NCBI GenBank assembly: GCA_014859095.1
Contig: JACUUV010000024.1
Coordinates: forward strand, 1 to 43,691
Reading direction: 5' to 3'
Origin: Clostridia bacterium
GTDB taxonomy: Bacteria > Bacillota > Clostridia > Peptostreptococcales > Acidaminobacteraceae
Length of the DNA stretch: 43,691 bases
Shown: in pieces, positions 1,116 to 22,008 of the stretch
How the letters are laid out: each line of letters begins with the position of its first letter
How positions within the stretch are numbered: the first letter of the stretch is position 1
Notes under the pieces: model-generated
What the model saw: the letters and a program-made list of their open reading frames with translations, nothing else
What the model was told of the DNA's origin: nothing
Database searches by the model: none
Made by a program: the position numbers and the translations under genes

Positions 1116-2016
1116 TCATGTCTCTTTTACCACAGAAAAGCTTAACCCATTTTCGGTGCAATAACTTTTCACGCTTTGATTCGCAGGTGGCATTTTCGCA
1201 CCAATAATCGACTCGATTTCCTGCACTGAAATACCAAAACCTAGAACTTGTGAAAAAGTAGTATTCCCATTGACTTTCAAGCCTTCTGAATCAGGTTAAG
1301 TCTTTAATATCCAGCTCTTTCATAATCATGACAAAGACTTGAACTGACTCATTTCCAATTTCAATGTCTCCTTCTTGCTCACCATACAAGGATTCCAGAT
1401 CCTTTGATTTTAGATTTTTTGCTACTTCAACATCTCCTAATTGAAAAGCTTCAGCAAGTAATTTGATGTCGATTTCAAATAAACTGGATATCTCTCCGAA
1501 ACTATAAGATCCCCTAATGTCAAAAGGATCATATGTTCCTGCTCCAGTACCTTCAGTAATTTTTATAGGAACTTTATCCGATTCGGTGGACCAAAGTCTG
1601 AACCCTTTAGCAATATAAATGCCTCCAACAATTATGATTATAATCAATACCCCTATATGACTATTTTTGAGTCTCATCTCATCTCTTCTCACCCCACTTT
1701 ATTTCTACAGTTTCAGGAACAGGGCAAATGTTTTCAGAAGTACACTCAAAACAGCTGATACATTGGAGCTGAGAGACTTTTTTACTGTTTGCTACATCAA
1801 TATTCATTGGACATGATTTACTACACAAATCACACGAGATGCATGTGGATTCATTTCTATTTAGTCTAAACATCTTGAACTTATTAGTAAAACCCAATAA
1901 TGCCCCATAGGGACACAAATATTTACACCAAGAAGTTGTTAGCCGCAATAATTGCTACCAAAATAAAAAATCCAAGTTGAACCAAATTTCTTAATCGCCA
2001 TTTACGCTTTTTTCAT
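1116..2016 (-). pseudogene. Decayed NapH/YccM-type 4Fe-4S membrane protein
   Basis: Three pieces of one protein are visible on the minus strand. (1) After the ATG at 2016, one base off frame at an A-run, there is a first membrane helix, RNLVQLGFFILVAIIAANN. (2) At 1948-1679 the frame resumes with WCKYLCPYGALLG followed by two ferredoxin-type clusters, CISCDLCSKSCP and CISCFECTSENICP, typical of the C-terminal half of polyferredoxin membrane proteins. (3) At 1692-1291 comes a periplasmic-type region with DIRGSYSFGEI; then a frameshift near 1300 moves the rest (TTFSQVLGFGISVQEIE, then KSYCTENGLSFSVVKE) into another frame, which ends at 1116. The helices between piece 1 and piece 2 are missing. 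So there is one large internal deletion and at least two frameshifts. Intact relatives pass electrons from quinols or reduced ferredoxin across the membrane; this copy cannot. It sits 7 nt downstream of the exporter-like gene. Confidence 0.75.
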
Positions 2017-2023
2017 ACTCACT

Positions 2024-2995
2024 CTACTTCTTTTCAAAATTCTCAATAAACCTCATCTTCACTGTAATCAAATCCTCTAAAGAATAGAGATATTGATGCA
2101 ATGCAATTCTATTTTGAAGTTGATTATGACTGGACGGAAGCTCTGATTCATATGTGAAATGATGCTTGATATTGTCAAGCATTTCAATTTGTGAAACGCA
2201 AGAATTCAATGCTTTAGTGTTGTTGACAAAATGATCAGTGAAATCCTTAAGCAACTCAACTTCCTTTTGTTTCAGAAATTTTAATTTGATAAACTCCTGC
2301 ATTGTCTTGACCGTGTAGTATTGTTGCTTTCGCATGATAAAATACTCAGTGTAATAATTGTTCTCGTGAATATAATAATTGTTCTTATAATCGTAAGCGC
2401 GAGCTTCAGCCCTTGATAGAACATTTTTAACTTCATCCAAATCTTCCTTGACCACTTCTGTTTTGCACTCATTCAATAGGCACTTCCCCATATTCTGAAA
2501 GATTCTGTCAAATAAATTCTCAACCTCTTTTTGGTAACCAATTAGTTCATCTTCAATATCAAGTATGAACATATTGATGACCAGTGCAACTGTAACGCCT
2601 AGAATCATCAAACCAAATTCATTGAGTAAAATGGGAAAGGTTACTTCCTCAAGCGAATAAATGTGCATCACCAAGACGACATTCAGCACAATGGCAATTT
2701 TCGTGTCAAATTTGTACATCAGAAAAGTGAATATTAAGATGTATATAGCAAATACAGGCAATGAAAATCCGAAAACAATAAATAGTACAGATGAAAGCGC
2801 CAAAGAAACAATGGCAGCCAATAAGCGAGTTGCAGCCAATTTGATGGATTGTTTTTTTGCCGATAGCATACTGACAATCACAATTGTTGCCACTGAAGAA
2901 TAAAACTCCATTTTCAGAGCCTGTGCAAGTAAGATCGCAATGACTACACCCAATGTGATTTTTAAACTTTTAATAATTTGTTCTTTTACTAGCAT
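2024..2995 (-). CDS. Aromatic acid exporter (ArAE_1/FUSC-like) family membrane protein
   Basis: 323 residues. The N-terminal half (about 1-145) contains closely spaced hydrophobic helices, starting KSLKITLGVVIAILLAQAL and including an SAKKQSIKLAATRLLAA segment between helices, the layout of the ArAE_1 (DUF939) family. From about 150 on it is a soluble, charged, helical domain (LIGYQKEVENLFDRIF and onwards) matching the family's C-terminal cytoplasmic domain. Related proteins are thought to export aromatic carboxylic acids or similar small acids, but most Firmicute members are uncharacterised, so the substrate is unknown. The gene follows the selenoprotein by 20 nt and probably shares its transcript with the hydrolase and mgtE upstream. 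The ribosome binding site in front of the ATG is weak. Confidence 0.8.
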   Translation of the reverse strand: MLVKEQIIKSLKITLGVVIAILLAQALKMEFYSSVATIVIVSMLSAKKQSIKLAATRLLAAIVSLALSSVLFIVFGFSLPVFAIYILIFTFLMYKFDTKIAIVLNVVLVMHIYSLEEVTFPILLNEFGLMILGVTVALVINMFILDIEDELIGYQKEVENLFDRIFQNMGKCLLNECKTEVVKEDLDEVKNVLSRAEARAYDYKNNYYIHENNYYTEYFIMRKQQYYTVKTMQEFIKLKFLKQKEVELLKDFTDHFVNNTKALNSCVSQIEMLDNIKHHFTYESELPSSHNQLQNRIALHQYLYSLEDLITVKMRFIENFEKK

Positions 2996-3015: not shown

Positions 3016-3312
3016 CTATAACGCATTGACTTTTACGCCCTTGACACTCAGCGAAGTGGCAAATAGAAAAGTGCTTGCCACAAACTCCAGTTTGTTATTG
3101 ATAGTATTCACATTTTTCATAACATAGACTGTTATGCCATCACGTTGGTACGAGTTGTAATGCTCCAGAACCTCTGGAACCTGATACCCGACTTCGGGCA
3201 TCGAAAACGATCCACATCAGCCACCTCCGGAACGGATTAGTGAGACCGTAAGAACTGTTGATTTTTTCTTCTTAAGGAAGGTCTTGACTTCATTGTTGAT
3301 GATGATTTCCAA
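3016..3312 (-). CDS. Small selenoprotein with in-frame UGA (Gly-Gly-Gly-Sec-Cys), CC/Se-motif or HesB-like type
   Basis: A TTG start at 3312 with a strong AAGGAGGTG Shine-Dalgarno 8 nt upstream opens a frame that meets TGA at 3219-3217 and then continues in the same frame to a stop at 3018-3016. Decoding the TGA as selenocysteine gives 98 residues with Sec at 32 in the context LIRSGGG-U-CGSFS. Both sides read as protein: upstream VKTFLKKKKSTVLTVSLI, downstream PEVGYQVPEVLEHY and GITVYVMKNV, ending with KLEFVASTFLFATSLSVKG. The whole resembles small thiol/selenol proteins of anaerobes that carry CC or UC at this place; the C-terminal part looks like an IscA/HesB-type fold. A hairpin sits 15 nt after the UGA. 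The function is unknown, perhaps redox or metal/sulfur handling. An annotation that starts at the internal ATG at 3201 would lose the whole active-site half. The gene lies 15 nt after the hydrolase stop, whose TGA is inside the Shine-Dalgarno region. Confidence 0.85.
3184..3201 (-). promoter_or_regulatory. Candidate bacterial SECIS hairpin
   Basis: On the mRNA, 15 nt after the UGA, a 7-bp stem (AUGCCCG with CGGGUAU, one G-U pair) closes the 4-nt loop AAGU. Bacterial SECIS elements bound by SelB are small hairpins inside the coding region shortly after the UGA, with a GU in the apical loop; position, size and loop fit. No folding program was run. Confidence 0.55.
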
Positions 3313-3327
3313 AATGCTTCACCTCCT

Positions 3328-4692
3328 TCAATTTTCCTTGGTAAGCGATTGATTAAAAAATTCCAATACATAATCATGCTGAATTCTCGCAGATTCCTCT
3401 CTGCCGAGTTCTCCAGTGAACCCTATAATCCCAGTAAGACTGGAGAACATATAAGACATAGTGAAGTCAATATGCGTTGTATCCTCTATTTGAATCAAGC
3501 TAGCATCGCCACTCGCCTCTACCAGTGGATTTAAATAATTGTCATTTAGACCACCTTCCCATTGTTCACTTCTTAGAAACAATGCTGGAATCGATAGACC
3601 GCCTGTCATCTCATCCATACCTAAAGGCTCTACCCAAGCATCCATCGCGAAAAGTGCTTTCACTCTCTTGTCTCTCAGTGCAACTGCAACATCCGCACCG
3701 CCACCAGTACTGTGACCCATTAAACCTATTTGTTCAAAATTCATGCTTCCAGTCATGACTTTAGAATAATTTCCACTGTTGATCGATTCCAATGAATCCA
3801 AAACCAGACTTATATCTCCAGCATATGTGAGTACAAGCCTGTTGGCGTAATTTAAAAAATCAGGTGTAGAGTCTCTATCAGGCAATGCACTATTATCGAC
3901 TTCTGCGGCATAACCATCATTGAATATTGTCATTTGTGCGCCGTGAGTGTGATCAATCCCTATTACTATATACCCATTACTAGCTAAAAGTTCCGCATAA
4001 TCATTGTGCAAATTTCTAAAACCCTTCCAGCCATGTGACATAATGATTACTGGATAATTGTCTCTCTCCTTACTTGCAGGTGCTTCATAATAAGCGTTGG
4101 AAAGAATTTTTTCTGTGTGATCCAGCGCAAAAAATGGAAGTTTCATTTCCTTAGCCAGGGATCTAGGTAATTCAATGCCATCTTGAAGCCAAACGACACG
4201 TGCATGACCACTGACATCATCAGATGGGTACCACACTTGAACCCGTATACGCCGCAAAGAATCGTTTGCTTCTGCCAGTTCGCCGTACATTTCAACTCTA
4301 TCCGGATCCGTCAATTCAAAAGTAACCGTCCCGATGGCATAATCGCCCTCAGGTGCAGGGATTTCATAAACAGGAAAAATCAACATCAATATGCCCGATA
4401 TGACAATTGCACCAGTCCCGATTATCGTTATCTTTTTTTTGTTGTCATGTGGAATCTGATCGTTTTTTCTCATCAAGATACCTACAATAGTCACAGTAAA
4501 ACTCACGGCAACGAAAAAATACAGTGGATACAGTTGCCAGTTTGTCACGTCAAACAAGATATGTCCCATTAAAAGACCAAATCCAGTCAATGAGAGCAGA
4601 TTCACCATGGTTGTCAGTTTGATTTTTGAAATATAATTTGTAACGATGATTATTAAAGAAAAACCAAATAACAAAATCTCAAGCCAAGACAT
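3328..4692 (-). CDS. Membrane-anchored alpha/beta hydrolase, PAF-acetylhydrolase/dienelactone hydrolase-like
   Basis: 454 residues. The first 130 or so contain four to five hydrophobic helices (from MSWLEILLFGFSLIIIVTNY to GAIVISGILMLIFPVYEI), followed by a catalytic domain outside the membrane. The hydrolase signatures are VIIMSHGWKGFRNLH (oxyanion-hole side), the nucleophile elbow GLMGHSTGGGAD with Ser between His and Thr, a later Asp in ALFAMDAWVEP, and a likely His in IEDTTHIDF. The family cleaves esters or lactones; the substrate here cannot be read. A good AAGGAGGAAC Shine-Dalgarno precedes the ATG. The gene is 47 nt after mgtE and 15 nt before the selenoprotein, so it is probably in one transcript with them. 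Confidence 0.8.
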   Translation of the reverse strand: MSWLEILLFGFSLIIIVTNYISKIKLTTMVNLLSLTGFGLLMGHILFDVTNWQLYPLYFFVAVSFTVTIVGILMRKNDQIPHDNKKKITIIGTGAIVISGILMLIFPVYEIPAPEGDYAIGTVTFELTDPDRVEMYGELAEANDSLRRIRVQVWYPSDDVSGHARVVWLQDGIELPRSLAKEMKLPFFALDHTEKILSNAYYEAPASKERDNYPVIIMSHGWKGFRNLHNDYAELLASNGYIVIGIDHTHGAQMTIFNDGYAAEVDNSALPDRDSTPDFLNYANRLVLTYAGDISLVLDSLESINSGNYSKVMTGSMNFEQIGLMGHSTGGGADVAVALRDKRVKALFAMDAWVEPLGMDEMTGGLSIPALFLRSEQWEGGLNDNYLNPLVEASGDASLIQIEDTTHIDFTMSYMFSSLTGIIGFTGELGREESARIQHDYVLEFFNQSLTKEN

Positions 4693-6247: not shown

Positions 6248-7314
6248 GTGACTACAGCCCTATTATCGAATCAAAATGAGGTTATTACAAGTTGGCTACC
6301 TATAATGCGTGTGGTTTCAAACATGTCGACTCTATTTGCACTAGATCTTTTTTCAATTGTGCCACTTCTATTTACTATAAGCCTTGCCAAAAGACATATT
6401 CTTGAAACTAAAAAGAATACTTATTATATAGCTACAGCTTGCATGACCATCGCAATACTGACCCTTGAGATCATTGCCAATTTGATTGTCAACTCAAGTG
6501 GTGCTCAATTCGTCGTTGCACATAAAATTGTAAATGTCTTGGGATTTGCTTTGAGCCCGATTGTCCCTTTCATGTTTTTGAAGTTTGTTGGCACAACGTC
6601 TCCAGTTTATAGTAAGCAAAACCTTTGGGTATTACCACTGTATCTTAACACTTTGTTATGTATACTCAGTTATTGGATGGGGTTCGTTTTCAAAGTGGAC
6701 GCACTTAACCATTATGAAAGGGGGAGTCTATTTTTAATACCGACATTGGTCTCCCTTTTTTATTTTAGTCTTATCATATATGAGATTTTGGAAAACCGTG
6801 CCAAGATTGCCCAGCCGGATAAGACTATTCTGGCTTTAATTTTTTCACTCCCCATCCTATCATTTGTATTTCAAATCGCATACCCAAATTTACTTCTGAT
6901 TTGGCCGAGTGTCTCATTGAACTTGCTGCTTTACTATATTTATTCCCTCTAAAATGCAATACGATTTTGACATACAAACTCAAATCAAGAACCGGACTGC
7001 TTTTGATAAAGAAATGCTCAGGAAATCCGAGCGCAATAATGTTACTTTGTTTGTATTCGATCTTAATAATCTAAAAAGTGTCAACGATCAATACGGTCAT
7101 ATAGAAGGAGACATACTCATCAAGTCATCGGCAACTTTGCTAAATAGATGCTTTATAGAAATTGGTGAAGTGTTCCGAAAATGTAACAAACAAACTGGAA
7201 ATAGCTCACGGATATGCTCATTACGACCCTCGTTCGGGTGAGTCAATTTACGAAGCATTATCAAGAGCTGACGATTTCATGTATGCACATAAAGCCTATC
7301 AAAATCCACGTTAG
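6248..7314 (+). pseudogene. Broken 7TM-GGDEF diguanylate cyclase gene
   Basis: A GTG start after GGAGG opens 234 codons encoding about seven membrane helices, up to LNLLLYYIYS. There the frame breaks (near 6945) and continues one base off with MQYDFDIQTQIKNRTAFDKEM, the usual linker into a GGDEF domain, then LFVFDLNNLKSVNDQYGH. At GEVFR (about 7180) a deletion removes the part that should hold the GGDEF signature itself; the tail is found in another frame as LEIAHGYAHYDPRSGESIYE and SRADDFMYAHKAY, ending at 7314. So the sensor and both ends of the cyclase are present but the active site is gone. Intact relatives make cyclic di-GMP in response to a membrane signal. A clear terminator follows. 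Confidence 0.85.
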
Positions 7315-7683: not shown

Positions 7684-9696
7684 TTATCTTTTCATGCGAG
7701 CCATCATTCTTGAAATTCCGCCACCATTCTCAACTTTTGTGAAACCGTAAGCTTTTAGAATTTGTAGTCCGTAGGCACTCCTTGCTCCAGAAGCACAGTA
7801 TAAGATAGTCTCTCTTTCTTTGTTATCAAGTTTTTTTGCTTGATACTCAAGTTCATCCAGAGGTATATTGATCGCACCAGGAATGGCACCATATGAAAAC
7901 TCTTCTGCAGTACGCACGTCGATGATCAATGGACCAGTTGGAGCCTCTTCCTTAACCTTTTCTTTCACAGCTTCCACTTTTTCTTCCTTGCTTGATTCTC
8001 CAAGTGTTTTCTCTACTGGAGCTGGAAGATCTAAAACAAATCTTACCGGTGTGACTGCACTGACATAATTGGAAAGACTGATGAATCCACCACTGACATT
8101 GAATACATTCGCAAATCCTGCGCCAGTCAAAATACGAAGTGCCTGGTGACCTTTTTTGCCAGTTTTATCATAGACGAAAATCAGTTGATCCTTCTTCAGT
8201 TGATCAAGATTTGAAGAAAGAATTTCGATTGGAATATTCACTGATCCTTCTACATGAGCTTTTTCAAATTCGAAAACATCTCTTACATCTACCCATTGAG
8301 CTTTCTTTCCTTCCAGATATGCATCAATCTCATTGATTGTCATAGTAGGAGAGAAACCTGAGATTCTATTTTCAGCCACATATGCAGCCATGTTCATTGC
8401 ATCGTTGGCATTTCCGAGTGGTGGAGAATAAGCAAAATCGATATCCGCTAAATCGGATACTGTAAGTTTTGATGCAACGGCCACAGCAAGGACATCTAGT
8501 CTTCTATCCGCACCTGCATAACCAGCAGTTTGTCCACCTAGTACAATTCCAGTTGCTTTGTCATAAACAACAAGCAAAGTCACCATCTCCGCGCCAGGAT
8601 AATAGGAAGTGTGGTGTTCTTTATGGACGACGATAGCATCTGCATCAATGCCTTCTGCTCTTGCAGCTTTTAATGAGAGTCCGGTCATTCCTGCCACCGC
8701 TTCAAAAACTCTGACGATGGATGTGCCAATTGGTCCACTGTATTCATGATTTTTCCCGAGTGCATTTTCAGCTGCGATTCGACCTTGACGATTCGCAGGA
8801 CCAGCAAGCGGAATACGTACTTTCTTACCGAGAACACGATGCTCAAATTCAATCATATCACCAGCACCATAAATATTCTCATCACTTGTTCTGAGTGTTG
8901 AATCAACAAGCAGTCCTCCAGCTTCTCCCATGGCAAGACCAGATTCCTGAGCCAATTTAAGAGTAGGGCGAACGCCGATTGAAAGTAAAACCAAATCTGC
9001 ATTTACGATTGTGCCATCTTTAAGTTTGACGTTCTTACTTCCAATCTCAGCAAGTGCTTTGTTTGTATATAAATCGACTCCATAAGAAATCATCTCCTGC
9101 TGAATAAAGCCAGCAATTTCAGCTTCCATAATGCCCATGACATGGGGCATCATTTCAATAACTGATACTTTCATTCCTCTTTTTGCAAATGCTTCTGTCA
9201 TTTCAAGTCCTATGAAACCACCTCCGACAACAACTGCTGTTTTGGGTTTTTCATTTTCTATAAATGAGTTGATTCTGTCCATGTCATCAAGCGTCCATAA
9301 TTGGAATACATGATCTTGATCCGCACCTGGAAGCGGTGGAGCTATAGGTTTTCCACCTTGAGCCAGGATCAGTTTGGTGTATTCAAATGTTTTCTTTTCA
9401 CCTGTTCTCGAATCTACTGTATGCACAATTTTGTTTTCTCTGTCAATTTCTGTTGCAGTTGTATATATATGAACCGCTGTTTGATACTCGTCATTAAAAC
9501 TCTCGGGACTTTGTAATATAAGTTTTGATCTGCTTTTAATATCTCCTCCAATATAATAAGGCAGTCCACAGTTTGCAAATGAGATATCAGCTCCTGCCTC
9601 TAGAATTGTAATTTGAGCATCTGCCGAAAGTCTTCTCGCTTTTGCCGCTGCCGTAGCACCTGCAGCCACACCACCTATGATAACAATTTTCTCCAT
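7684..9696 (-). CDS. CoA-disulfide reductase / FAD-dependent oxidoreductase with two C-terminal rhodanese domains
   Basis: 670 residues. Residues 1-445 are a flavoprotein pyridine nucleotide-disulfide oxidoreductase: FAD motif VIIGGVAAGATAAAKARR at the N-terminus, the single active Cys in SFANCGLPYYIGG (about residue 43), NAD(P)H motif VVVGGGFIGLEMTEAFAKRG, and GAGDMIEF. Two rhodanese-like domains follow. The first (about 455-545) has VYDKTGKKGHQA where the active Cys loop should be, so it lacks the Cys. The second (about 590-670) keeps an intact loop, LYCASGARSAYG. Enzymes of this CoADR-Rhd type reduce CoA disulfide, CoA persulfide or polysulfide with NAD(P)H; the rhodanese domain probably hands over sulfane sulfur. 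The gene is monocistronic with its own terminator, and its promoter contains a CsoR/CstR-like palindrome, which fits control by reactive sulfur. Confidence 0.9.
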   Translation of the reverse strand: MEKIVIIGGVAAGATAAAKARRLSADAQITILEAGADISFANCGLPYYIGGDIKSRSKLILQSPESFNDEYQTAVHIYTTATEIDRENKIVHTVDSRTGEKKTFEYTKLILAQGGKPIAPPLPGADQDHVFQLWTLDDMDRINSFIENEKPKTAVVVGGGFIGLEMTEAFAKRGMKVSVIEMMPHVMGIMEAEIAGFIQQEMISYGVDLYTNKALAEIGSKNVKLKDGTIVNADLVLLSIGVRPTLKLAQESGLAMGEAGGLLVDSTLRTSDENIYGAGDMIEFEHRVLGKKVRIPLAGPANRQGRIAAENALGKNHEYSGPIGTSIVRVFEAVAGMTGLSLKAARAEGIDADAIVVHKEHHTSYYPGAEMVTLLVVYDKATGIVLGGQTAGYAGADRRLDVLAVAVASKLTVSDLADIDFAYSPPLGNANDAMNMAAYVAENRISGFSPTMTINEIDAYLEGKKAQWVDVRDVFEFEKAHVEGSVNIPIEILSSNLDQLKKDQLIFVYDKTGKKGHQALRILTGAGFANVFNVSGGFISLSNYVSAVTPVRFVLDLPAPVEKTLGESSKEEKVEAVKEKVKEEAPTGPLIIDVRTAEEFSYGAIPGAINIPLDELEYQAKKLDNKERETILYCASGARSAYGLQILKAYGFTKVENGGGISRMMARMKR

Positions 9697-18660: not shown

Positions 18661-18909
18661 TTATCCACCACTGACGGGACTAAGGATTGCAAGTTCATCT
18701 CCATCTTTTAAAATCATGGTTAATCTTTTTTTCCCAATGATAGGTTTCTTATTGATAAACAAAATGGAATTCATCAGGTGAGTTTTGTCTATTTGAGGAT
18801 AGGTTTTGATGATTTCTTCCAGTGTTTCGATGACCGTCCTCTCACTCATAGTCAATTTTGAAACTCCAACTTCGTTTCTGATCCATCCAAAAAATTTGAT
18901 TTCAAACAT
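18661..18909 (-). CDS. MoaD/ThiS-family sulfur-carrier protein
   Basis: About 82 residues: a small beta-grasp protein that starts MFEIKFFGWIRNEVG and ends in LAILSPVSGG, with the free Gly-Gly C-terminus that is thiocarboxylated for sulfur transfer. The TGATG junction overlaps the stop of the aldehyde oxidoreductase gene, so it is translationally coupled to it. MoaD-like proteins next to AOR genes are usual and probably supply dithiolene sulfur for the pyranopterin cofactor of tungsten or molybdenum. Confidence 0.85.
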   Translation of the reverse strand: MFEIKFFGWIRNEVGVSKLTMSERTVIETLEEIIKTYPQIDKTHLMNSILFINKKPIIGKKRLTMILKDGDELAILSPVSGG

Positions 18910-20804
18910 CACTTGTCCTTTACAAGCTTAAGTCGTTTTAAGGTTTTCTGGGTAGGTATGCCGTTTGCATCCCAACCACGAATTTTATAATAGGTACCCA
19001 ACATTTCATCAAGTTTTACTACACTATTGGAATCATCCGACCTTTGGAGTTCCTTTAATAGGCGTTTAGGTAGAGTGTCATCTGTGCCTTTAAGACCTTG
19101 TCTTATATTGACGATGCGTTCTAGGTTATAGACTCTTTCTCCAGTCTCCAAAAATCTGCCAATCGTCATTTTATAACCTGTGATCAATCGTATAGAATAA
19201 GGATGCGGCAATACTGAGGCAAGATTAAAATGCATCAACCATGTCTTATTTTTTATAAATCCAACCAATCCACCAAACTGTGGAATTGCGCCGTTAATCA
19301 AGCGTACCATAATATTGTTGGGTTTTTCAACTAAAAAAGATGGAAGCATTGCATAAGTGGTGAACAGACAACTTCCTGCGGAAGATACCGCTTCCATCAT
19401 GTCTTGGAACATAATGGTATATGCGGCTTTACCACGAGTTGTTTTTCCACTTACATTGAGTCCGAGTCCTTCCAAAACCACTAAATACCCACCATTGAGA
19501 TGGCATCCCCCACGGTTTGATGTAGCATAGCCTAGTCCCATACCTTGAGCTGAACGAGGTTCATAAGCAGCGGTTTCTAGTCCTTTGACATGTATGGCAA
19601 AGTCTTTCCCACCGTATTTTTCAGATAAGCGCTTAGTTCCTTCTGCAAGTTCATTTCCAATGCCTTCGCGTTTGGATGTTTTTTCAACAAGAATCTCGAG
19701 CGATGTTGAATCTCCAAACTTCAGACCATTGTCCCACATACCTTTTTCACTCAGTTCCATGGCAAAGCCAATTGTGCTTCCAAAAGTTATTGTATCAATA
19801 CCGTATTCATCACACAAATGGTTCAAGCGTATAATGCTTTCCATGTCATTGTTTAACAAATTACTTCCCAAAAGTCCGAGGGTTTCAAGTTCTGGTCCTT
19901 TGACCACTTTCCCAAATGCTTTAACTTGACGTCCACACTGAATCGGGCAAGTCACACAACCTTTGTTTTTCACCAAATGGTCTTCAGCAAGCGTCTCACC
20001 GCTAATTTTTTCAAAATCATCAAATTGACCACTACTGTAATTTTTAGTTGCCAGCAGATTGCGGTAATTCATCATACTGACAAGACCTGCAGTGCCATAT
20101 AGAGGCAGTTGTTTTCCTGTAAGAGGATGGGATTTCAATTGTTTTATCCACTTGACATTGTGCTTCTTAAAGGACTCTTTGTCAAACATTTCAGTGCTGA
20201 ATTGGCCACTTGCAACAATGCCTTTAAGGTTTTTATAACCAAAAACAGCCCCAACGCCACCACGTCCTGCCGCTCTTTCCTCGCTGATTACTGCCGCATA
20301 GCGCACCAAATGTTCTCCTGCGATTCCGATCACAAGTTTACCACGATTTTTAGCACCAAGAAGTTCTTGCGCCTCCGAGGTGTTCTTTCCCCATAAATGC
20401 TTTGCACATTTAACTGTAATCACTTGGTTTTCTATATCAATGACCACTGGTTCAGGACTTTTTCCCGATATGATGAAGGCATCATAACCAGCCTTTTTTA
20501 AATGCAGTCCAAAACTACCGCCACAATTGGATGAAATCAACAAACCCGTGAGGGGCGATATGGTGGAGATGTTGAAACGAGAGGAACATGGCGAAGTGGA
20601 ACCGGTAAGAGGCGACGTTGTGATTACGAGGATATTCTCGTCTGATAAGGCTTCTACTTTGTCTTTAAAGGCATCATAAATGATCTTTGCAGCTAGTGTC
20701 TTACCCCCTAAATAAAGTTCATAAGACTCTTCTGTCATAGGATAATTCTGAACTGTGCCATCTGTCAAATTAATCCTTGCAATTTTCCCGTTGAATCCAA
20801 ACAT
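18909..20804 (-). CDS. Aldehyde:ferredoxin oxidoreductase (tungsten/molybdopterin)
   Basis: The start chosen is the ATG at 20804, after AAGGAG, giving 631 residues beginning MFGFNGKIARINLTDGTV, the family's canonical N-terminus. An upstream ATG would overlap the alcohol dehydrogenase end by over 100 bases. Motifs: YELYLGGKTLAAKIIY, SPLTGLLISSNCGGSFG, ERAAGRGGVGAVFGYKNLKG, and the 4Fe-4S Cys cluster GCVTCPIQCGR (Cys 283, 286, 290). The enzyme oxidises aldehydes to acids with ferredoxin, or reduces acids when reduced ferredoxin is plentiful. With the alcohol dehydrogenase 5 nt upstream it can form an acid-aldehyde-alcohol route. The gene is in the tetR-adh-aor-moaD operon. Whether it uses W or Mo cannot be read. 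Confidence 0.93.
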   Translation of the reverse strand: MFGFNGKIARINLTDGTVQNYPMTEESYELYLGGKTLAAKIIYDAFKDKVEALSDENILVITTSPLTGSTSPCSSRFNISTISPLTGLLISSNCGGSFGLHLKKAGYDAFIISGKSPEPVVIDIENQVITVKCAKHLWGKNTSEAQELLGAKNRGKLVIGIAGEHLVRYAAVISEERAAGRGGVGAVFGYKNLKGIVASGQFSTEMFDKESFKKHNVKWIKQLKSHPLTGKQLPLYGTAGLVSMMNYRNLLATKNYSSGQFDDFEKISGETLAEDHLVKNKGCVTCPIQCGRQVKAFGKVVKGPELETLGLLGSNLLNNDMESIIRLNHLCDEYGIDTITFGSTIGFAMELSEKGMWDNGLKFGDSTSLEILVEKTSKREGIGNELAEGTKRLSEKYGGKDFAIHVKGLETAAYEPRSAQGMGLGYATSNRGGCHLNGGYLVVLEGLGLNVSGKTTRGKAAYTIMFQDMMEAVSSAGSCLFTTYAMLPSFLVEKPNNIMVRLINGAIPQFGGLVGFIKNKTWLMHFNLASVLPHPYSIRLITGYKMTIGRFLETGERVYNLERIVNIRQGLKGTDDTLPKRLLKELQRSDDSNSVVKLDEMLGTYYKIRGWDANGIPTQKTLKRLKLVKDK

Positions 20805-20808
20805 GGCT

Positions 20809-22008
20809 TCACTCCTTGATTTCATAGTATATTGTCTTAAAATCTTCCCTTGTGAAAATTTTAGGCACTGGATAGAGTGGATTGGCTTCGTGATGCGCTC
20901 GGTCCACCATGATAGAAATATCTTTTTCATCAATGCCGCTAATTTTGTCCGGGATGTTCATTATTCTGTTCAGTGATATAAGGCGATCTATAAAACGATT
21001 GGCTTTCGTTTCGATGTCTTCTTGATGTGATGGGACTGTAATTAAATCCTCTAGTTCAGACAACTTTTGATGAGCTGATGATCCGTATGACTTTAAGACA
21101 TAGGGCAAAATGACCGCATTAGCAAGACCATGAGGGGTATTGTAAAAGCCTCCTAAAGTATGTGCAATAGCATGTACATTCCCGACATAGGCTCTTGTAA
21201 ATGCAACACCAGCGTAGTATGAAGCTTTTTGCATATTTTCTCGTGCGATGATATTGGTTCCGTTACTATACGCTTCAAAGATGTTGTCCAAGATCAACTT
21301 TACTGCATCTTTGCTCATCTTTTTCGTTTCAGACGTGTTACTTTTACCAATATACGCTTCTACCGCATGTGTCAAAGCATCCATACCGGTAGTGGATGTG
21401 ATATGCTGAGGCAATGCTAAAGTCAAATTCGGGTCGAGCACCGCATAGTGAGGGATCAACGCCGTATCATTTATAGCATACTTTTCATGGGTTTTACTAT
21501 TGGTGATTACAGCTGCAATTGTAGCCTCGCTTCCCGTTCCGGATGTTGTTGGAACAGCATAAAGCGGTGGTATGGCTTTTATCACTTTTAAGACGCCTTT
21601 TAACTGGGGAATGGTTTTGTTTGGCCTTGCCAATCTTGCTGCAACACCTTTTGCACAATCCATAGAAGAGCCACCTCCGAAAGCGATGATACCTTTACAT
21701 TGATTCAGTTTATAAAGTTCCAGAGCTTCCTCTATATTGTCGATGGTTGGGTTTGGGACTGTACCATCATAGATGACATACTGAATACCTTTGTTCTTTA
21801 AACCTTCGAGCAAGCTGTCAACCAATCCCAGTGAAACTATAACTCGATCGGTGACGATGATGACGGTTTGGATTCCATTGCTCGACACCACATCCGGCAA
21901 CTTTGATAAACTGCCTTGACCTTCAATTAGAATAGGCTTTCTAAATGGTAAAAGATAAGAAACCATCTTAAAAACATTTTGGTAGACTCTGCAATACAAC
22001 CGATACAT
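20809..22008 (-). CDS. Iron-containing (group III) alcohol dehydrogenase
   Basis: 399 residues from the ATG at 22008, which follows AAGGGG by about 9 nt. It begins MYRLYCRVYQNVFKMVSYLL, an N-terminal extension typical of a clostridial Fe-ADH subgroup. NAD-binding loop: AFGGGSSMDCAKGVAARL. Metal-site region: TTGMDALTHAVEAYIG, then HAIAHTLGGFYNTPHGLANA with the metal-binding His residues. It reduces aldehydes to alcohols with NAD(P)H. It starts 13 nt after tetR and ends 5 nt before the aldehyde oxidoreductase, so the two enzymes are made together. Confidence 0.93.
   Translation of the reverse strand: MYRLYCRVYQNVFKMVSYLLPFRKPILIEGQGSLSKLPDVVSSNGIQTVIIVTDRVIVSLGLVDSLLEGLKNKGIQYVIYDGTVPNPTIDNIEEALELYKLNQCKGIIAFGGGSSMDCAKGVAARLARPNKTIPQLKGVLKVIKAIPPLYAVPTTSGTGSEATIAAVITNSKTHEKYAINDTALIPHYAVLDPNLTLALPQHITSTTGMDALTHAVEAYIGKSNTSETKKMSKDAVKLILDNIFEAYSNGTNIIARENMQKASYYAGVAFTRAYVGNVHAIAHTLGGFYNTPHGLANAVILPYVLKSYGSSAHQKLSELEDLITVPSHQEDIETKANRFIDRLISLNRIMNIPDKISGIDEKDISIMVDRAHHEANPLYPVPKIFTREDFKTIYYEIKE

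Follow-up and report, generated by a model that had tools for sequence, protein, structure and literature searches.

The locus considered here raises the question of whether an in-frame TGA within a small gene of a Clostridia bacterium is read as selenocysteine and, if so, what the resulting protein may do together with the products of the neighbouring genes. The gene is located in a stretch of 43,691 nucleotides (contig JACUUV010000024.1), referred to here as the window. An earlier note on this DNA had described the gene as that of a selenoprotein of no known function, which a standard annotation would truncate. The frame running from 3312 to 3016 on the reverse strand contains a single TGA, at codon 32, in the context GGG-U-CGS, and ends with a TAG when this TGA is translated as U (Table 1). 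The 98-residue translation exhibits U32 and C33 as its only motif residues, and no other cysteine is present. With translation table 11, the only listed ORF of at least 50 aa in this frame comprises 61 aa and starts at the ATG at position 3201. A Shine-Dalgarno-like stretch is indeed present ahead of the gene in the window, as had been noticed, and L059 and L127, two orthologous loci, exhibit an ATG at the place aligned with the TTG start of the window, with an AGGAGG upstream.

Table 1. Position and basis of the features at and around the selenoprotein gene of the window.
Feature	Position	Strand	Details and basis
Upstream gene, alpha/beta hydrolase domain (PAF-AH_p_II), hydrophobic N-terminus by eye	3328..4692	(-)	454 aa; PF03403 95.9 bits, cut-off 20
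Shine-Dalgarno-like AGGAGGTG	3320..3327	(-)	9 nt ahead of TTG start; read directly
CC/Se motif family selenoprotein gene	3016..3312	(-)	98 codons + TAG; NF041239.1, translation, orthologues L058/L059/L127
In-frame TGA, very probably selenocysteine 32, followed by Cys33	3217..3219	(-)	141 members compared in the aligned column
Candidate bacterial SECIS hairpin, 8 bp, 4-nt loop AAGU	3183..3202	(-)	Predicted; loop 22 nt past TGA
Second short hairpin stretch	3164..3179	(-)	Centroid fold; 1 of 6 drawn pairs forms in no sequence
Downstream gene, aromatic acid exporter family member 1	2024..2995	(-)	ArAE_1 PF06081 90.1 bits, ArAE_1_C PF11728 98.2 bits
NapH-like polyferredoxin relic, 89 aa of C-terminal part	1679..1948	(-)	Similarity to L058 and L059 proteins
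Shortened gene, 133 aa (240 aa in L058, L059)	1291..1692	(-)	Comparison with L058, L059

With regard to the protein itself, the read-through translation matched the NCBIfam model NF041239 with 53.3 bits (cut-off 40, E 2.2e-14) over residues 2-92 of 98, and with 46.4 bits (cut-off 40) in the search of the whole genome, while a Pfam search at E up to 0.01 gave no match. The orthologues of L058, L059, and L127 are respectively 96%, 81%, and 71% identical to the window protein, and all three have kept the TGA. Between the window and L059, the differences at codon positions 1, 2, and 3 amount to 2, 2, and 19 in the 30 codons before the TGA and to 10, 6, and 29 in the 66 codons after it, which indicates that both sides of the TGA evolve as one protein-coding gene. 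The claim that the frames before and after the TGA read as one protein is thus supported by the match across the TGA, the coding-type substitutions, and the conservation of the TGA in the orthologues.

The host genome (134 contigs, 99% complete) was found to contain all of selA, selB, selC, and selD, which the earlier note had suggested looking for and of which it had regarded selB and selC as decisive. The tRNA-Sec (68.4 bits), SelA (569.2 bits), SelB (345.5 bits), and SelD (404.8 bits) all scored over their cut-offs and are encoded on one contig (C96:47875-57037), the SelD gene itself having one in-frame TGA. Among 297 genomes sampled from the order, a family match (E up to 0.001) was obtained in 92, 63 of them over the cut-off, and SelB (E up to 1e-60) in 209. 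SelB accompanies the family in 86 of 92 genomes and occurs in 123 of the 205 that lack the family (Fisher 4.9e-10, which is not a strict probability, the genomes being related). Among the six family genomes without SelB, G008 and G130 carry no TGA in their one and three copies, respectively, G139 and G292 gave only weak family matches (3.5e-4 and 4.8e-5), and G049 and G058, which are 79% and 63% complete, yielded no SelB although their copies contain a TGA.

This family occurs widely in the sampled genomes (92/297 in the order and 90/398 in a phylum sample), with several copies in many of them. For the alignment, 141 members were extracted: 81 from the order sample, window included, in which not all matches were taken and 78 are over the cut-off (L057, L065, and L134 are below), and 60 from the upper part of the match list of the phylum sample, all over the cut-off. 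A TGA is carried by 104 of the 141 extracted members, a proportion that, given the way members were picked, is no rate for the family. These 104 members have 105 TGAs, of which 83 fall in the column of the window TGA, 21 in the next column, and one elsewhere (L107). In the column of residue 32, the 141 members exhibit U (83), C (52), A (3), S (2), or T (1), so the homologues run through this position with Cys or Sec, as the earlier note had expected of an alignment. The Sec members usually exhibit a cysteine at most four residues from the Sec (92/104). This partner is found at +1 in 35 members, the window with its adjacent U-C being of this type, at -3 in 24, at -1 in 20, at +3 in eight, and elsewhere within four residues in five. 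As the remaining 12 have no cysteine within four residues, the Sec and Cys pair is not obligatory in the family; 11 Sec members have no cysteine at all.

Several further copies deserve a mention. Four family copies were found in the host genome, on contigs C73, C84 (the window), C88, and C128. The copy at G000:C73:45755-46033 exhibits CC and no TGA, that at G000:C88:4888-5157 exhibits Cys-Sec with a TGA, and that at G000:C128:7832-8053 (L057) exhibits, like its relative L065, Ala-Thr in place of the motif. L107 (G131:C1:1935308-1935583) contains two in-frame TGAs, the second being located 67 columns past the motif, at a position where the other members mostly exhibit S, K, or R. At least two family copies lie close together on one contig at G334:C21, G407:C90, G341:C17, and G657:C218 (L193, L213, L223, and L174). 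The search for loci related to the window returned one relative, L051, whose family protein is equal to that of G158:C267.

A hairpin that could serve as a bacterial SECIS element is predicted shortly after the TGA (Table 1). It has a local energy of -13.6 kcal/mol, and the fold of 91 nt has a z of -1.5, with 18 of 200 shuffled sequences folding as well. Across the family, the best local hairpins have a mean energy of -8.9 kcal/mol after the TGA (104 members) versus -6.2 kcal/mol at the corresponding codon in the 37 members that lack a TGA (p 3.6e-4), and a G occurs among the first two loop bases in 83/104 TGA members versus 14/37 members without TGA (Fisher 6.6e-6), the rows being related in both comparisons. 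The loop of the window hairpin begins with AA. For neither of the two hairpins were covarying pairs more numerous than in shuffled controls in the alignment of eight relatives. In the block after the TGA, which was picked once the alignment had been inspected, third positions differ at 7/23 codons versus 40/72 elsewhere between the window and L059 (p 0.054) and at 8/23 versus 47/72 between the window and L127 (p 0.015). These differences are only suggestive of a third-position constraint after the TGA in the window gene.

Taken together, the NF041239 score, the Sec machinery of the host, the exchange of Sec and Cys in one column, and the coding-type codon evolution before the TGA make it very probable that the window gene is a genuine selenoprotein gene whose TGA is read as selenocysteine. 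This gene adds a member to a family that is already catalogued (NF041239) and was previously listed as predicted. The review PMC13188914 (2026) includes this family among predicted selenoproteins, with the motif CxxU in its Table 1; no function is assigned to it in the accessible part of that review, in agreement with the earlier description of the family as one of no known function. Bacterial selenoproteins are also the subject of two older papers (PMC1794560 and PMC9312934). As the NF041239 model calls the family over its cut-off and the review lists it, a pipeline using this model with read-through need not truncate the gene, and the expectation that annotation would do so is not supported in this form.

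The genes surrounding the selenoprotein gene are tightly arranged, in keeping with the operon that had been proposed, with gaps of 15 and 20 nt between the selenoprotein gene and the neighbouring genes, and the order hydrolase, selenoprotein, exporter is kept in L058 and L059, which come from two other genomes of the genus. In L058, one extra gene is located between the exporter and the NapH-like gene. In L127, from a different genus, the homologue of the hydrolase gene is also adjacent, though in convergent orientation, and the link with ArAE is seen only within the genus. The identification of the neighbours as a hydrolase, an exporter, and a polyferredoxin relic proved correct, the first two through the PF03403 and ArAE_1 models and the third through the full-length NapH-like genes of L058 and L059. 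The relic is 96% identical to the 278-aa protein of L058 and 82% identical to the 279-aa protein of L059; the scores of the full-length L058 protein against NapH models stay below the cut-offs. Both the NapH-like gene and the next gene (1291-2023) are shortened, as stretches found in L058 are missing in the window, owing to deletions or to an assembly error. Elsewhere in the window, two adjacent ORFs at 6248-7241 match a single 371-aa protein of L058 (93% and 96%), which points to a broken gene or a sequencing frameshift. The 670-aa protein encoded at 7684-9696 resembles, by eye, a CoA-disulfide reductase with rhodanese-like parts, and an ORF that appears MoaD-like by eye lies beside one resembling an aldehyde:ferredoxin oxidoreductase at 18661-20933.

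The genomic context of the relatives was then considered over four ORFs on each side. The ORFs were called with a custom picker, and names were assigned to them through phmmer matches (E 1e-10) to the L078 and L165 genes. An Acr3 gene is located within this distance of 9/141 members. Seven of these belong to one clade from family f2 (L078, L080, L085, L089, L090, L091, and L107), and the other two are L213 (f54) and L215 (f68). L205, whose SBF-family neighbour is below the acr3 cut-off, L100, with an arsC-like gene only, and L209, with an arsA-like gene only, were left out of this count. It is uncertain how many separate Acr3-linked branches there are, since the quick tree contains many unresolved forks and long-branch warnings, including one for L215. 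In L078, the gene order is arsR, CC/Se gene, arsC, acr3, arsD, and arsA; the ArsR/SmtB, Acr3, ArsD, and TRC40/GET3/ArsA models were matched over their cut-offs, and the ArsC-like protein and the specific ArsA models below them. In L085 and L090, the family gene lies directly between arsR and acr3. All nine Acr3-linked members exhibit an adjacent UC or CC, and two of the nine have no TGA. As the ten genomes checked contain 1 to 3 Acr3 genes over the cut-off, an Acr3 neighbourhood would be expected to arise only rarely by chance. A plasmid search for relatives of the ars-linked protein of L078 returned none up to E 0.001.

A second recurring context comprises thioredoxin-family genes, one of which is located within four ORFs of 16/141 members and was confirmed by Pfam in L165, L191, and L195. 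In L191, a fusion of thioredoxin and pyridine-nucleotide reductase is encoded upstream of the family gene, and in L195 the thioredoxin neighbour is followed by a DsbD-type membrane protein. The thioredoxin-linked members exhibit CxxU or UxxC in 12/16 cases and another motif state in 4/16. The examined neighbours of the window gene include no ars gene, those listed give no match to thioredoxin, and the nearest relatives, L058, L059, and L127, do not lie beside an ars or thioredoxin gene either. The Acr3 gene of the host genome is located on contig C48, between ORFs that look arsR-like and arsC-like by eye, and the family copies are on other contigs. The suggestion that the neighbourhood is a place to look for a new redox or detoxification system is therefore in keeping with the ars operons and thioredoxin contexts of some relatives, whereas the window gene itself lies outside any such cluster.

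With regard to structure, AlphaFold2, run with an 81-row alignment, predicted a fold with one helix and mainly strands (mean pLDDT 93.8, pTM 0.85). In this model, residue 32 is located in a loop between the strands 20-29 and 35-42, and the confidence is lowest around the motif, with block means of 88 and 83 for residues 21-40. Six of the first nine rows of a Foldseek search of the PDB are IscA (1r94, 1x0g twice, 1s98) or SufA (2d2a twice), with E values of 0.021 to 0.2, TM values up to 0.63, and probabilities up to 1.00. The list is headed by ODPA-YNER, a model, with E 0.015, and none of its E values is as low as 0.001. The top match in VIA-align is IscA 1x0g_C (Z 8.5, rmsd 3.2, 91 residues aligned), and six of the best ten rows bear the title IscA, SufA, or Fe-S biosynthesis protein, the rest being ODPA-YNER, DsrR, AQ_1857, and hi1723. 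No thioredoxin fold is found among the leading Foldseek and VIA matches and this candidate was set aside, although a fold missing from such a list is not thereby excluded.

At the sequence level, PF01521 (Fe-S_biosyn) is reached by 19 of the 81 members at E up to 0.1, the best value being 1.9e-6, and no other Pfam family is reached by more than two of the 81 at this threshold. The window protein does not match PF01521 up to E 0.1 and does not attain its gathering score, and a profile search of the PDB sequences gave no IscA, only one chance match (E 0.42). Kinship of the family with the IscA fold is thus likely from the predicted model and these scores, a kinship that the window member alone would hardly show. 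The A-type carriers (IscA, SufA, and ErpA) have three conserved cysteines, including a C-terminal CxC. Judged from its place in the chain, the Sec would fall in the counterpart of the glycine-rich loop in which IscA has its first cysteine. A CxC beyond the motif is present in 1/141 members and any cysteine beyond the motif in 17/141. Membership of the A-type Fe-S carriers was rejected, as the C-terminal cysteine pair is missing.

We propose, with a probability of roughly 0.55, that the window protein uses an IscA-like scaffold to carry a selenol/thiol module for binding or reducing a soft electrophile and that it is paired, in the branch of the window, with the hydrolase and the ArAE_1 exporter. 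The product would be a soluble selenoprotein of 98 residues belonging to NF041239, for which codon 32, the TGA, would be decoded by SelB and tRNA-Sec, aided by the predicted hairpin just downstream. The protein is predicted to adopt an IscA/SufA-like fold and, as it has no other cysteine, it cannot hold an Fe-S cluster in the three-cysteine manner of the A-type carriers. Its active part would be the Sec-Cys pair, located in the loop that follows the first long strand, where the strongly nucleophilic selenol and the neighbouring thiol could bind or reduce a soft electrophile, such as an organometal, a reactive conjugate, or a metalloid like As(III), before the site is recycled by cellular thiols. 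In the ars-linked relatives the target is probably arsenic, and in the thioredoxin-linked relatives the site may undergo a redox cycle. In the genus of the window, the gene order suggests that the co-encoded hydrolase and ArAE_1 exporter handle and export one such compound.

Other explanations have to be weighed against this proposal. It is scarcely credible that the TGA is an ordinary stop, with only the ORF from the ATG at 3201 being made, or that the gene is dead. The 61-aa ORF does have an ATG and the neighbouring genes look decayed in the assembly, but the codon-position pattern before the TGA, the exchange of Sec and Cys in one column, with the TGA kept in the orthologues, and the full Sec machinery of the genome led us to reject both an ordinary stop and a pseudogene. 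An enzyme coupled to thioredoxin, whose Sec-Cys pair would form a selenenylsulfide in turnover while reducing a small oxidant or a protein disulfide, and for which metalloids would be incidental, is a more serious alternative, though rather unlikely. The thioredoxin-family genes near some members, including the three confirmed by Pfam, and the prevalence of CxxU or UxxC among the members so linked are what such an enzyme would exhibit. On the other hand, the leading structural matches of the predicted fold are IscA and not thioredoxin, some Sec members have no cysteine whatsoever, and in the window the Sec and Cys are adjacent, with no thioredoxin among the listed neighbours.

The IscA/SufA-like predicted fold could also belong to an A-type Fe-S carrier with one ligand site, a dimer of which would bridge a cluster via Sec and Cys and pass it on. 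The weak sequence kinship to PF01521 and NF038090 and the presence of a NapH-like Fe-S protein in the gene cluster are consistent with this; the near absence of a CxC, and scarcity of any cysteine, beyond the motif argue against it, as do the recurring ars and thioredoxin contexts, which are not those of Fe-S assembly, and we consider such a carrier improbable. The selenol/thiol module acting on a soft electrophile is the reading that we retain for the window protein.

Extending this module to the whole CC/Se family is more tentative, and we would lean against it slightly: the family might be a branch of the IscA fold that turned from Fe-S delivery to a selenium-based module for soft electrophiles, with ars, thioredoxin, and hydrolase/ArAE branches. 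If true, the ars branch would be an unrecognised, often Sec-containing component of arsenic-resistance operons, acting as an As(III) ligand, a chaperone, or a reductase; other branches would couple to thioredoxin via CxxU or UxxC, and the branch of the window would serve a detoxification operon with a hydrolase and an ArAE exporter. In the literature searched, outside of which were two Haft papers cited in PMC13188914, NF041239 is named in one paper, and no paper joins a selenoprotein with ArsD and Acr3. From the predicted fold and the two contexts that recur, a testable proposal can be drawn for what was a hypothetical selenoprotein, namely a selenol/thiol site on a scaffold of Fe-S delivery that would serve metalloids or thioredoxin-driven reduction.

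Compared with known systems, the window protein is similar in its predicted fold to IscA/SufA (PF01521) over almost the whole chain, but differs from them by the lack of the C-terminal Cys-x-Cys and of a PF01521 match. The HesB-like selenoproteins (TIGR01911 and NF038090) are small and have their Sec in a glycine-rich stretch, as in the family of the window. The NF038090 model (IscA_HesB_Se) is reached at E up to 0.1 by 14/81 members and TIGR01911 by 3/81; the window member itself scores 14.7 bits against NF038090 (cut-off 85) and is not listed for TIGR01911 up to E 0.1. The same genome encodes a HesB-like protein separate from that of the window, namely an ORF at G000:C48:84679-84930 (L225 1465-1755, reverse strand) with one in-frame TGA (GVGUGGPKFGF), which is below the PF01521 cut-off, is followed by an ORF that looks glutaredoxin-like by eye, and is located about 6.4 kb from the Acr3 gene of the genome. 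The likeness to ArsD, the arsenite metallochaperone, is one of possible working only: both are small proteins whose soft ligands are adjacent, and in some relatives the family gene accompanies those of ArsA and Acr3. ArsD is nevertheless another family, a separate arsD is present in six of the loci, and the window copy is outside any ars operon. With the CC/Se motif family NF041239 (Moor_selen_rel), by contrast, the window gene shares its whole length, a score above the curated cut-off, and a Sec/Cys motif, the latter being U-C in the window and CxxU in Table 1 of PMC13188914, whereas the cysteine of the members is mostly located at -3, -1, +1, or +3.
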